Origin: Diplonema papillatum
Lineage: Eukaryota; Euglenozoa; Diplonemea; Diplonemida; Diplonemidae
Length of the DNA: 64,000 nt
NCBI GenBank assembly: GCA_030068145.1
Contig: JAPJBO010000849.1
Location: forward strand, 1-64,000
Direction: 5' to 3'
The first letter of the stretch is position 1; the number at the start of each line of letters is the position of its first letter. The notes beneath the pieces were generated by a model. It searched no databases. It was not told where the DNA came from and saw only the letters and a program-made list of their open reading frames with translations. Shown piece by piece: positions 1-13,033 of the stretch. A program made the position numbers and the translations under genes.

Positions 1-226
1 CATCACACACACACACACACCACACAACACCCCACACACACACACACACACACACACACACACACACACACACACACACGCACACACACACACACACACA
101 CACACACACACACACACACACACACACACACACACACACACACACACACACACACACACACACACACACACACACACACACACACACACACACACACACA
201 CACACACACACACACACACACACACA
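1..226. repeat. (CA)n microsatellite, left flank of YR retroelement
   Basis: Nearly pure CA dinucleotide repeat with a few interruptions in the first 45 bases. It runs to the window edge on the left and ends where the A1 repeat of the YR retrotransposon starts. The same dinucleotide resumes directly after that element, so the element sits inside the repeat. Open frames across it (poly Cys-Val or His-Thr) are artefacts. Confidence 0.98.
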
Positions 227-391
227 CCTAGCAAGCTTGCTTGAGCGCCTTCGGCGCGTCAAGTTGGAATCCTTACGTTTCTGAGCGAACTCCTCATATT
301 ATCCACTCGCCAAAAGCGAGGTTGGAGGGGTAAGCAAAAACTGACAAACGCAGGCCCACCGTTTGCCCCCTTTTTGTACTCCCCCTTCGAA
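227..391 (+). repeat. Split direct repeat A1 (left end of YR element)
   Basis: Essentially identical to 4568-4734. It opens with a 12-bp palindrome (AGCAAGCTTGCT), then a hairpin GCGCC-TTC-GGCGC at 245-257. Its last 36 nt (356-391) recur at 4322-4357 and 4699-4734 and are the only part shared with B1, as expected if A and B meet in a circular intermediate. The Gag-like ATG follows directly at 393, so A1 also serves as the 5' leader. Confidence 0.88.
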
Positions 392-392
392 A

Positions 393-10000: not shown

Positions 10001-12809
10001 GTGGATGAGACACATCGCTGGCATCGAAGCGGCGATTCCTCTATCCTACGTCGACGACCTATATGCATTGCTGAAGAGCTGTGCGAGCTTAAAAGAGGCA
10101 GTTCGACGGTCGAGCGAGTTCGCAGGGCTGACGGGAATGCGAGTCTGTGCGCAAAAGAAGTCCTTTTGCTTCACCACAGCACGCGGAGCCTGTGAGCCAG
10201 TGCAATATACAGAGCTCGATGGGGCGTTGCAGCCGTCGGCACCACCGGTGATGCTCGCCAGACGGTTGGAGTTTGACGCATTGGGAGTAATGCTATCCAC
10301 GAGGCCTCTCCCGCCGAGCAAGCAGCTCACCCCCTCGAGCAGGATCGCACAACGGAACGCAGATGCTGAGGCGGTCCTAAGGAGAGCCGCCTCCCTCCCA
10401 CTTCCTGCACAAGCGAGGGACCTGGCGACCAGCATGGCAGCCGGCGCAAAAAGGTACTATGGTGCAGCAGTAACGGCCATAGGGAAGACGGACGCTACGC
10501 GGTTGAGGAGGCTCTTCACCGCAGCAGTATGGACGGGCGGTCCCCGCCGAGCACAGGAAGCCGTGCTACACATCTTGCATCACGGGCACAGGCTGGACCC
10601 CTACGTAGTGCCCCAATACCGAAGGGTCACGACGTGGGCTGAGCAGAGCAAGAAGTGGGAACACGTCCGGAGACTGGCGCGAGTGTCGTGGCAGCGAGAT
10701 GGCGAGCTAGCACAGGTACGAGGGCCGTTTGCGTTTTTCAAGGACGCCTTGGAGGACATAGGTTGGCGGTGGACGGGCCCGACGACAATCGCGTACGAAA
10801 ACGAAGCCGGCGAGACGGTGACCCACGATGCAGCACAAATGGGCAACACGAAGCTTCTTCAGCACGACGTACGACATGCGACGCGCCTCCGGGAGATGAG
10901 GAAGCTGGCAGCAAGGAGACCGGCGGACTTTGACGGAGCGCAGCACGGCATCGACACGTGGGCTACGAGGCACCTGCTGGAAAAGCGGGAAACGCCGCTG
11001 ACCGCTTACCAAGCAGGAATGCTCCGGACGGTCATTGCGGGGGCCACACCGGCCACGGGGCGAACCGGGCTAGAGGTGACATGCAAGTACTGCGGCACGC
11101 AGGAAAGAGAGACTGTCGAACACCTTTTCTGGAGATGCATGGCGTGGACACAAATACGGTCGGAATATGCTGACCTGGAGGACATCCAAAGCAGTTGGCC
11201 GCCGTGTTTACGCCTTTGTGGAGTCGTTCCTCTCTGCCCCCGAGCTCCACTCGAAAATCCGCTACCTGCTGACGAACACCAACGCCTCCGCATTATAGAG
11301 AGACTGCAGACGTTCTTTGTTGCGGTACTGGTAGCCAGACAGGAAACAGACAATATGCTGGACCGAGCCCCGCGACACCACCGAACGTTGGAGTATCCGC
11401 GGGGGTGGGTCCCAACAGCCCCCCGGGTTTTGAGCGTGACGGACGTCCCACACGCCGCAACCACCTCAAAGTGGAAATATGGCCCAGGTCTCTGGACAGC
11501 CTTCACGGGCTGGCTAAAAACACTCAGGTGGGCACCCCCAGGGCAGGAGACTGGAATCAGCTATATGGAGCTAGCTGTAGCCTTCGAGCTGGAAGCGGGG
11601 ATCAAGCTGCCCCCGGTGAAGAATCGGTTCTACGCCCCACCGCCAGAAATTCCAAGAGGGAAGCAAACTGCAGCACGGGACACGCTTCCGGACGAGGAAA
11701 CCGCGGACGAGATTGCAGTATACTTCGATGGCGGAGCGCGCGGGAACGGCACCGTTTTTGCAGTAGCGGGAGCAGGGGCAGTACTGTACCGAAATGGCAG
11801 AAAAGAAGCTGAGATGGTGCTGCCCCTGCCGAACGTGCGGACGAATAACGTAGCGGAATATGAAGGACTTCTGGCGAGCCTGGAACTCCTCCAGCAGGCA
11901 CGAACCGAACAAGGAGCGCGTTGCGTAGTCCGAGGCGACTCGGCCCTCGCGGTGGGCCAGGTGACAGGGCAGACGGGCTGCTCGGAGCAGCTAAGGCCAA
12001 TGCTCACCCGGGCAAAAGCGCTCCTATGTGAGATCCAACGACGGATGCAGGTAGTAGTGCAACATGTTCGGCGGGAGAGCAACAGCGATGCTGACGCGTT
12101 GAGCAACGCGGCGATGGACGTGGTGCAGCGGAACCGCCCACCCCGGCGGGTACAGATGCAGATGCTGCAACAGGTACAGACATCACTTCTGGGAAAGGCA
12201 CTGAGCCTCATAGAGCTGGGGAGCGCCTACACAAAAGTGGCGAAGCAGCCGTGGCACTTTGGGTTCGACGCGCCAACAACGGTCCTAACATCGCTTGGAG
12301 GAACGGTTGTGCGGGGAATATCGTGCAGGGCGAAGATCTCGCAAGCTGCCGAGGATGTCATCCTGAGGATCCGTGAGCACGTGCAGAGCCGCCCTCCCTC
12401 AACGGAGGAGACGCCGCTTTTCCCGCAGTACCTAGCATGGGCCGCGACGTACCAACCAGAGGAGGTGTACCCCATGGGATGGTTGCGAGCATGGGCCGGC
12501 CGGGCGAGACCGCAAAAGCCTGAGGATCCCCGCGGAGAGCGAAAACGAAGGGAGGCACCGCGGAACCCGGTTAGACCGCTAAACGCGGAAGGCCTGCACG
12601 AACGGCCGATAGGGCGAGCAACGAGGAAGACGAGCGAGCGACGCAGCGAACGGAGCCCGCGACCAAAAACCGAACACTGCCAACTCCATGAACAGGAGCA
12701 GCGCCGAGAGAGTCGAAACGAAGCGTCGCGCGGCCTCAGGCACCACCCGGGCTCGCAGGAGACACCGGGCCCCCACCAGCGGCCGGGCGGGGCGTCGGCC
12801 GTAACCTAG
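7041..12809 (+). CDS. LINE ORF2 polyprotein: OTU protease - AP endonuclease - RT - zinc knuckle - RNase H
   Basis: About 1,913 residues numbered from the GTG at 7068. OTU cysteine protease (~50-180): KDGNCQYQAL with Cys69 and Asp66, YGDHYTLQAAAEVL, and YRPEHYDAL with His173. AP-type endonuclease (~220-470): TTNLGSL, IIALQET, VIMGDFN (379-384), GSRIDMCF, PTHCPVF. RT (~750-1080): QRPITITPVLYRIW, LALDFQKCFD (Asp904), GIMQGCPIS, SYVDDLYA (Asp996/997). Zinc knuckle CKYC...EHLFWRC (Cys1339, Cys1342, His1352, Cys1357). RNase H (~1548-1690): VYFDGGARGNG (Asp1554), NNVAEYEGLL (Glu1597), VRGDSALAV (Asp1624), SNSDADAL (Asp1674/1676). A basic Arg-rich tail of ~100 residues follows. The first ATG is residue 304, inside the endonuclease, so ATG initiation cannot give the full protein. 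OTU might cleave a readthrough ORF1-ORF2 precursor or remove host ubiquitin; both are inference. Confidence 0.93.
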   Translation, partial: VAGRPGESSVASNQSASDQRTRATRGAERPTNNSNVRCSWTAEATNNPTPAESGDRLLDKAAAVLGARREVVGKDGNCQYQALIRGGRLNLTAAALRQKVTRQLRTNPPTPFVPETPKSFADYLFEAASDGVYGDHYTLQAAAEVLKASVWVLSTRNLTQLRCEGRAARATRVVVLTYRPEHYDALALPHRVLQKISALEVGTSTISLRQLGAETVAPAPRGGVAGPRGEVVLATTNLGSLNSRCHSVATLPADIIALQETRAGPEVKRTSEFYLGAYGVRCHWGEDVPVVVGASGIGQRVPGGAAVTTKSNMVATVARPSTELERELFRSTRVAHAVVATGNARATIHVISVYAHVGKDSEAVREREKLLAGVFEMAAGLGQVPVVIMGDFNTETRDSPALEAACGSGGWIDSAAVMARAHSQAAPATCWAGEGGSRIDMCFLNRTAAPALVAVVTAKKGQYDIPTHCPVFVTLSLEVFTQSDPTAWIPAPFPRKLPLLSPEKKEAVLEAALRRKEEKTGVTGAYQNATVVAETYLLELHGDPRQPDALRGCKGRTGGFQQKMQQVSARQACSTRGALDWAAKQRDKVIGLLRTTISETRRRLENKSVGGRTFAEQRARDALLRTAGRTQPLGVRLGQISGSQQELEQLMETLIELEGTQRDAINSLKQQRCRAWKERMQNEWNGPGRGEVYRYLAGGRSRPLAMLRRKDGTLTACCTEIDRMLRSDDAWGGIFCKYAGTPEPRWDTFKIHYARFFPARQAMPHGPITTADLKAALAKMKKTSSPGLHGWRVYELQQLPPQVLELMADAMNSVEREGEWPAPLMHAIIHLLPKPESTGDPLSQRPITITPVLYRIWASIRARDALEWMDAIAPSGLHGCRKQHGTDDLVWHLAALIEEAHITKQPLYGLALDFQKCFDSVPAEIAFKLAEELGFHPTVLKTLRAAYANMQRHFRVGNSIGEGFVPTNGIMQGCPISVVLINVLISVWMRHIAGIEAAIPLSYVDDLYALLKSCASLKEAVRRSSEFAGLTGMRVCAQKKSFCFTTARGACEPVQYTELDGALQPSAPPVMLARRLEFDALGVMLSTRPLPPSKQLTPSSRIAQRNADAEAVLRRAASLPLPAQARDLATSMAAGAKRYYGAAVTAIGKTDATRLRRLFTAAVWTGGPRRAQEAVLHILHHGHRLDPYVVPQYRRVTTWAEQSKKWEHVRRLARVSWQRDGELAQVRGPFAFFKDALEDIGWRWTGPTTIAYENEAGETVTHDAAQMGNTKLLQHDVRHATRLREMRKLAARRPADFDGAQHGIDTWATRHLLEKRETPLTAYQAGMLRTVIAGATPATGRTGLEVTCKYCGTQERETVEHLFWRCMAWTQIRSEYADLEDIQSSWPPCLRLCGVVPLCPRAPLENPLPADEHQRLRIIERLQTFFVAVLVARQETDNMLDRAPRHHRTLEYPRGWVPTAPRVLSVTDVPHAATTSKWKYGPGLWTAFTGWLKTLRWAPPGQETGISYMELAVAFELEAGIKLPPVKNRFYAPPPEIPRGKQTAARDTLPDEETADEIAVYFDGGARGNGTVFAVAGAGAVLYRNGRKEAEMVLPLPNVRTNNVAEYEGLLASLELLQQARTEQGARCVVRGDSALAVGQVTGQTGCSEQLRPMLTRAKALLCEIQRRMQVVVQHVRRESNSDADALSNAAMDVVQRNRPPRRVQMQMLQQVQTSLLGKALSLIELGSAYTKVAKQPWHFGFDAPTTVLTSLGGTVVRGISCRAKISQAAEDVILRIREHVQSRPPSTEETPLFPQYLAWAATYQPEEVYPMGWLRAWAGRARPQKPEDPRGERKRREAPRNPVRPLNAEGLHERPIGRATRKTSERRSERSPRPKTEHCQLHEQEQRRESRNEASRGLRHHPGSQETPGPHQRPGGASAVT

Positions 12810-12871
12810 AAGGGTGCCATGCGTGGACACACTCTCGCTAAGGGGGGCGCCACGTTAAAACGAGTCCGCGA

Positions 12872-13033
12872 CACACACACACACACACACACACACACCA
12901 CACACACACACACACACACACACACACACACACACACACACACACACACACACACACACACACACACACACACACACACACACACACACACACACACACA
13001 CACACACACACACACACACACACACACACACAC
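12872..13033. repeat. (CA)n microsatellite, 3' flank of non-LTR element
   Basis: About 160 bp of CA repeat with one interruption near 12898. It starts directly after the LINE 3' UTR (GTCCGCGA). Confidence 0.97.

Follow-up and report, generated by a model that had tools for sequence, protein, structure and literature searches.

How do two unrelated classes of retrotransposon come to lie one after another in the same dinucleotide microsatellite? The question is raised by the left end of a 64,000-nucleotide stretch of the Diplonema papillatum genome (GenBank assembly GCA_030068145.1, contig JAPJBO010000849.1, positions 1 to 64,000 of the forward strand; hereafter the window), where a retroelement with a tyrosine recombinase (YR), a solo terminal unit of a sister subfamily and a long interspersed nuclear element (LINE) are separated by (CA)n tracts. 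Our counts across the genome confirm that this accumulation of retroelements at CA tracts is not a coincidence but one example of a genome-wide targeting. The window is very probably one case of an enzyme-directed integration into (CA)n that is practised throughout the genome by both retroelement classes.

A chain of retroelements spaced by (CA)n tracts

The left 13.3 kb of the window consist of a retroelement chain in which (CA)n tracts, called with Tandem Repeats Finder (TRF) at 96-100% matches, act as spacers between the elements and their open reading frames (ORFs):

4..227, plus strand: (CA)n tract left of the YR element (TRF)
228..4942, plus strand: YR retroelement of subfamily 1 with split direct repeats, arranged as A1-ORFs-B1A2B2
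4941..5135, plus strand: (CA)n tract between the YR element and the solo unit (TRF)
5138..5486, plus strand: solo A+B unit of YR subfamily 2, the sister subfamily
5485..5750, plus strand: (CA)n tract between the solo unit and the LINE (TRF)
5751..12870, plus strand: full-length L1-like LINE of 7.1 kb
12871..13033, plus strand: (CA)n tract right of the LINE (TRF)
13034..13316, plus strand: 5'-truncated copy of a second LINE family (LINE-B tail), then a short CA run

Mapping of the tracts with TRF bears out the preliminary description of this DNA, which had placed the YR element, the sister-family solo unit and a LINE of about 7 kb in series with (CA)n on both sides of each. It had overlooked the last element of the chain at 13034-13316, directly 3' of the last CA tract. 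Four fetched copies of this second LINE family extend upstream of the point at which the window copy meets the CA tract, and because the CA begins exactly here, the copy is read as a 5'-truncated insertion into the same tract. Similar arrangements occur elsewhere. The pattern of the window is echoed at locus L012 by the second LINE, CA, a YR unit, CA and a LINE piece, and at loci L040 and L049 two LINEs stand head to tail with a CA tract between them. Contig 636 (L076) carries a near-identical version of window positions 4251-7274 with the same insertions, the upstream sequence being 97.7% identical over 1236 bp, and this locus is probably a haplotig or a duplication of the window locus.

CA flanks of YR elements across the genome

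The left-end motif of the YR elements was found at 1001 places in the genome with at most two mismatches, and the reversed motif at none. It is directly preceded by 16 bp of CA in at least 524 of these places (375 in subfamily 2 and 149 in subfamily 1; reversed-pattern control 0), a count that is a lower bound, with mismatch rules unequal between the patterns. Pure CA runs of at least 32 bp number about 3928 and cover approximately 0.19% of the genome; at this coverage, chance would bring about one YR element next to CA on the right strand. The flanks were inspected in the first 70 of the 1001 places, which are exact motif matches on the longest contigs and comprise 6 internal B|A junctions and 64 genomic left ends. 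Pure CA in front of the latter measures at least 30 bp in 44 cases, 20-29 bp in 4, 10-19 bp in 6 and less in 10. Among these ten low-CA ends, L011 and L128 have longer tracts with one interruption and L025 a degraded run, while the others show approximately CACAC. Altogether, the motif stands in 35 distinct contexts in the fetched sequence, 31 with CACAC no more than 14 bp before it and 4 at internal junctions, and a TG run precedes it in none of the 35.

The phase of the join is likewise constant, being ...AC|CTAGC in subfamily 1 and ...CA|TACTAGC in subfamily 2. The left ends accordingly read ...CACAC|CTAGC and ...CACATA|CTAGC, and the right ends ATTCCAAC|ACAC and ATTCCA|CACA. Inside the element, B1 and A2 meet without genomic DNA between them, and this junction reads ATTCCAACCTAGC in subfamily 1 and either ATTCCATACTAGC or GATCCCATACTAGC in subfamily 2. 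CACA is absent from these junction sequences, hence the CA is not part of the YR element ends.

CA flanks of LINE copies and of a control repeat

A motif at the 3' end of the LINE superfamily occurs at 1227 places (reversed control 8), and in 672 of them AC sequence of 12 bp or more comes directly after it (reversed control 0). All 30 fetched 3' ends run on in CA-type sequence, which starts with ACAC in 29 cases and with GCACAC in one. The full-length LINE 5' end is present at 47 places in the genome; the 30 that were fetched are all preceded by CA-type sequence, interrupted in L091 and L098, and the join has the phase ...CA|GGGGGG in 27 of them. Several families are represented among the fetched LINE copies, some sharing no more than about 65-82% identity with the window LINE, and these have the 3' end and the target in common. 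Of the family to which the window LINE belongs, 21 copies were fetched; all are preceded by CA, and 18 match the window copy at 99.7% identity or more over the compared stretch, a closeness that suggests recent movement. Furthermore, CA also precedes, and CA-type sequence follows, truncated pieces of 47-569 bp whose terminus is the LINE 3' end (12 rows with 10 distinct starts, aligned over part of their length at most). The CA is therefore not merely a LINE tail, because pieces truncated at different points carry it upstream. The LINE thus behaves as a microsatellite-specific element, with most of its copies, truncated ones included, in one microsatellite and in one orientation. Sampled elements of both classes are oriented on the CA strand.

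A different picture emerged for a fourth element at 39302-39400, a short repeat with inverted ends (CAGGGC...GCCCTG), which the preliminary description had likewise assigned to (CA)n. Its family has 756 matches in the genome, and CA stands before the same end in only 9 places; the resulting share of about 1% is approximate, with a CA pattern fitted to the majority form that misses the window copy and differs from the pattern behind the 756 matches. Given these numbers, the position of the window copy beside CA is not a behaviour of its family, which lies mostly outside CA and can be used as a control repeat.

Is CA the target of integration?

The CA on both sides of the YR elements and LINEs represents the target of integration rather than a part of the elements. 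This follows from the strand and phase, which are fixed in nearly all sampled copies including young ones, and from the CA upstream of truncated LINE pieces.

The opposite view, that the CA is element sequence, namely a LINE 3' tail as well as CA carried at the YR ends and expanded later, would be in line with the ACAC that opens the run in 29 of 30 fetched LINE 3' ends and with the often considerable length of the tracts adjoining elements. However, it is at odds with the internal YR junction free of CACA and with the CA found upstream of the LINE pieces with their 10 distinct starts, of the window's truncated second LINE and of the full-length LINE 5' ends, and is thus regarded as quite improbable. 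Some of the 3' CA beside LINEs may nevertheless have been added at insertion or by growth of the tail.

It was also considered that insertion is largely random and selection keeps only those copies that landed in neutral CA repeats. Microsatellites are probably neutral, and single tracts hold several elements, as such a refuge would predict, but selection alone would neither fix strand and phase nor hold young copies, and the near-identical LINE copies are already in CA. Moreover, another abundant repeat, the control family, is mostly found outside CA. We therefore consider a refuge shaped by selection only improbable, even a little more so than CA as element sequence. Least probable of all is an assembly artefact, by which contigs misjoined across CA repeats, a known assembly hazard, would bring elements side by side in an assembly of 2910 contigs with some near-duplicate loci, because misjoins cannot make element ends adjoin CA in fixed phase and strand, and in some copies the CA extends for a mere 5-20 bp before other sequence begins.

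Several observations weigh against enzyme-directed integration into (CA)n. The strict CA pattern is not matched by 477 of the 1001 YR motifs and 555 of the 1227 LINE 3' ends; where such places were sampled, the CA was short, interrupted or decayed, or the motif lay at an internal junction, and the samples are biased towards exact motif matches. The CA run is short or degraded at the LINE 3' ends L054, L057 and L061, and going by where its BLAST match starts, L057 also lacks CA on the upstream side. The catalytic tyrosine of the YR ORF was not identified in the window copy. No empty allele was seen, though they were not searched for systematically. The loci are also partly non-independent, since the locus on contig 636 has the flank of the window locus, L075, L088 and L093 have a common flank, and L073 and L085 have 612 bp in common. 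Finally, misjoins at CA repeats could be present in the assembly.

Of the two readings offered by the preliminary description, a CA-rich safe haven and convergent targeting, the data as a whole support the latter, given the flank counts, the fixed strand and phase and the young copies, and make the former improbable. The tabulation of flanks against random expectation that it had proposed gave at least 524 of 1001 YR left ends after CA versus about one expected, and 672 of 1227 LINE 3' ends. Neither of the two outcomes that it named as fatal was encountered. Most copies do not lie outside (CA)n, as more than half of both classes have the strict CA pattern and nearly all sampled copies are at CA, and (CA)n does not belong to the element ends, as seen from the B1|A2 junction and the truncated LINE pieces.

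Structure of the elements

The YR element of the window is composed of the following parts:

228..391, plus strand: A1 unit, identical to A2
363..1646, plus strand: ORF1, gag-like by position only; two Pfam matches, both below curated cut-offs
1643..2533, plus strand: tyrosine recombinase ORF; PHROG integrase match at residues 84-295 (E=2.4e-7)
2517..3983, plus strand: reverse transcriptase (RT) ORF; Pfam RVT_1 (E=1.4e-18)
3512..4303, plus strand: RNase H (RH)-like ORF, in a frame different from the RT ORF in the window copy; Pfam RVT_3 (E=2e-6)
4357..4568, plus strand: B1 unit, near-identical to B2 with small indels
4537..4638, plus strand: B1|A2 junction, the same sequence as the putative circle junction; predicted cruciform (z -4.6)
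4569..4732, plus strand: A2 unit, identical to A1
4733..4942, plus strand: B2 unit with the right end GGGATTCCAAC

The 35 bp preceding B1 (4322-4356) are a repeat of the end of A. While the YR ORF gave no Pfam match and nothing convincing in a PDB search, PHROGs provided the match listed above, and an HxxR motif was spotted by eye. With its split direct repeats A1...B1A2B2 and the order of a gag-like ORF (by position), YR and RT/RH, the element has the features of VIPER-like elements. PAT elements encode the YR downstream of RT/RH. The YR match here lies upstream of RT, which does not agree with a Ngaro-like or PAT-like element.

The LINE of the window has two ORFs:

5793..7040, plus strand: ORF1, without Pfam domain
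7068..12809, plus strand: ORF2, with matches to an apurinic/apyrimidinic (AP) endonuclease-type domain, RT and RNase H

Its ORF2 endonuclease matches Exo_endo_phos of Pfam (E=5.5e-12), an OTU-like match remains below the cut-off (E=0.012), and its best PDB matches include LINE-1 ORF2 proteins. Judged by its predicted AP endonuclease domain and L1-like RT, the LINE fits the L1 group. Viral contigs were searched for kin of the YR-element RT and of LINE ORF2, where none was confirmed and nine stretches matching the pattern failed in tblastn.

A model of serial integration into CA tracts

These features suggest how both classes might reach the same target. The YR element most likely forms a DNA circle with a B|A junction, which the tyrosine recombinase would cross with the CA repeat via a two-base core (AC for subfamily 1, CA for subfamily 2). 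Such a crossover between circle and (CA)n would not duplicate the target and would keep the phase constant, and circle junctions crossed into (CA)n at an AC or CA core give exactly the left and right ends that were observed. Later recombination between A1 and A2 would have led to the solo units. In the case of the LINE, the AP-type endonuclease most likely nicks (CA)n on its TG strand, from which reverse transcription is then primed, and nicking of this strand would orient the LINEs along the CA strand, 5'-truncated ones included.

Since CA would be left on both sides of each insertion, the tract would remain a target and be filled serially. Beyond the upstream CA tract of the 30 full-length LINE 5' ends, inspection by eye found a YR or LINE end in 14 loci, a YR fragment in 1 and no recognised end in 7, while 3 have the recurring end CCCTGAACTT and 5 were not judgeable; a few of these loci are duplicates. 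The CA tracts probably act as landing strips that stay open after each insertion.

A recurring end AAAGCCCTGAACTTAA, or one near to it, was also noticed directly before CA or CACAC in L030, L071, L078 and L090 and perhaps marks a further CA-associated family.

A predicted folding junction in the YR elements

The right end of B is complementary over about 20 bp to a stretch approximately 40 bp into A. For four subfamilies, folding predictions on single-stranded DNA of the B|A junction give a long stem and two small hairpins, with z values of -4.6 to -6.7 and none of 200 shuffles as good; the junction sequences used are natural for subfamilies 1 and 2b, seen in part for 2a and inferred for 2c. 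The crossover point coincides with the base of the predicted stem. The arms differ between subfamilies and keep their complementarity within each. When arms were swapped, own arms paired best in 4/4 rows and 4/4 columns and arms from different subfamilies paired worse, subfamilies 1 and 2a being close (-17.4 vs -17.2 in one column).

The attC sites of integrons are YR sites that fold as a stem, with the crossover near the base of the fold. The YR-element junction resembles them in its predicted stem with the crossover at the base, and differs in that here the fold is a prediction and belongs to a retroelement junction. It may represent an ordinary double-stranded recombinase site whose arms are inverted, a feature of the RNA, or a single strand that folds into a site as attC does. 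A rather speculative and on balance unlikely extension is that the YR element integrates like an integron cassette, its single-stranded cDNA or circle junction folding to a cruciform that is recombined with double-stranded (CA)n, which together with the LINEs would make (CA)n a shared niche for serial stacking.

Relation to known systems

One of the closest counterparts of the YR element is TATE, a VIPER-like element of trypanosomatids, for which the parts of the publications considered here describe split direct repeats A1-B1A2B2, gag-like, YR and RT/RH genes, and tandem clusters in a fixed position in telomeric hexamer repeats (PMC6681497, PMC12278014). Repeat layout, gene content and the fixed position in short tandem repeats are thus alike, whereas the YR element here targets (CA)n instead of telomeric hexamers, and solo A+B units are common in our sample. 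For Diplonema papillatum itself, the part of the genome paper considered reports LINE-1-like and TATE-like ORFs, and more than 60 ORFs are said to resemble TATE, MULE and Helitron proteins (PMC10161547); section 8 of that paper does not mention CA targeting. Microsatellite-specific LINE families are represented by the Togen non-LTR elements of fish, which are specific for (TG)n according to the passages considered (PMC4640811). However, Togen is discussed there among NeSL relatives, a clade with restriction-like endonuclease, while the endonuclease of the present LINE is of the AP type and is accompanied by an L1-like RT and RNase H. Some families of the YR lineage CryptonV are likewise described as inserted specifically in microsatellites (PMC8869645, in part), but these are DNA transposons and not retroelements. 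Finally, the Ngaro elements of Cafeteria, as far as covered by the excerpt considered (PMC8547959), resemble the YR element in their split direct repeats, their YR and the DNA preference of some types, but there the YR follows RT/RH and the preferred DNA is that of virophages, compared with a YR before RT/RH and a microsatellite here.

Hence, precedents exist for each half of the finding in the telomeric insertions of TATE, the (TG)n insertions of Togen and the microsatellite insertions of CryptonV. The literature searched contained no report of two retroelement classes on one microsatellite, nor of CA targeting in Diplonema. What seems to be new is the common target and the scale on which it is used, along with the host and the folding junction.

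Other features of the window and genome

A 37-base sequence that we take to be the diplonemid spliced-leader exon occurs at 616 places in the genome (at most three mismatches; control 0), all listed ones being exact. In the window, a 5.8S ribosomal RNA match above the gathering score was found at 46788-46940, the only Rfam match of the window at that threshold, and represents an isolated or dispersed rRNA piece. A pure (TC)n tract of 143 bp at 37137-37279 has no recognised element beside it, and a tandem array of 208- and 327-bp units extends over 62671-63644. Three tandem copies of a 68-bp unit are located at 54159-54363. In the section of the Diplonema genome paper considered here, a 68-bp stretch of mitochondrial DNA is said to form an array in the nuclear genome (PMC10161547), and the copies in the window may be such a mitochondrial-derived array, as judged from the unit length.

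Significance of a shared (CA)n target

The target-specific retrotransposons that we found described are single lineages, whereas in this genome the same dinucleotide repeat is shared by LINEs, which are target-primed, and by YR elements, which presumably integrate as circles. The shared (CA)n target allows a direct comparison of two unrelated enzymes reading one low-complexity target, in copies young enough to suggest recent activity. The covarying predicted cruciform offers a testable recombination site for elements with split direct repeats. Diplonemids are the sister group of kinetoplastids, and a VIPER/TATE-like element with a repeat target in a diplonemid bears on the origin of the telomeric targeting of TATE.

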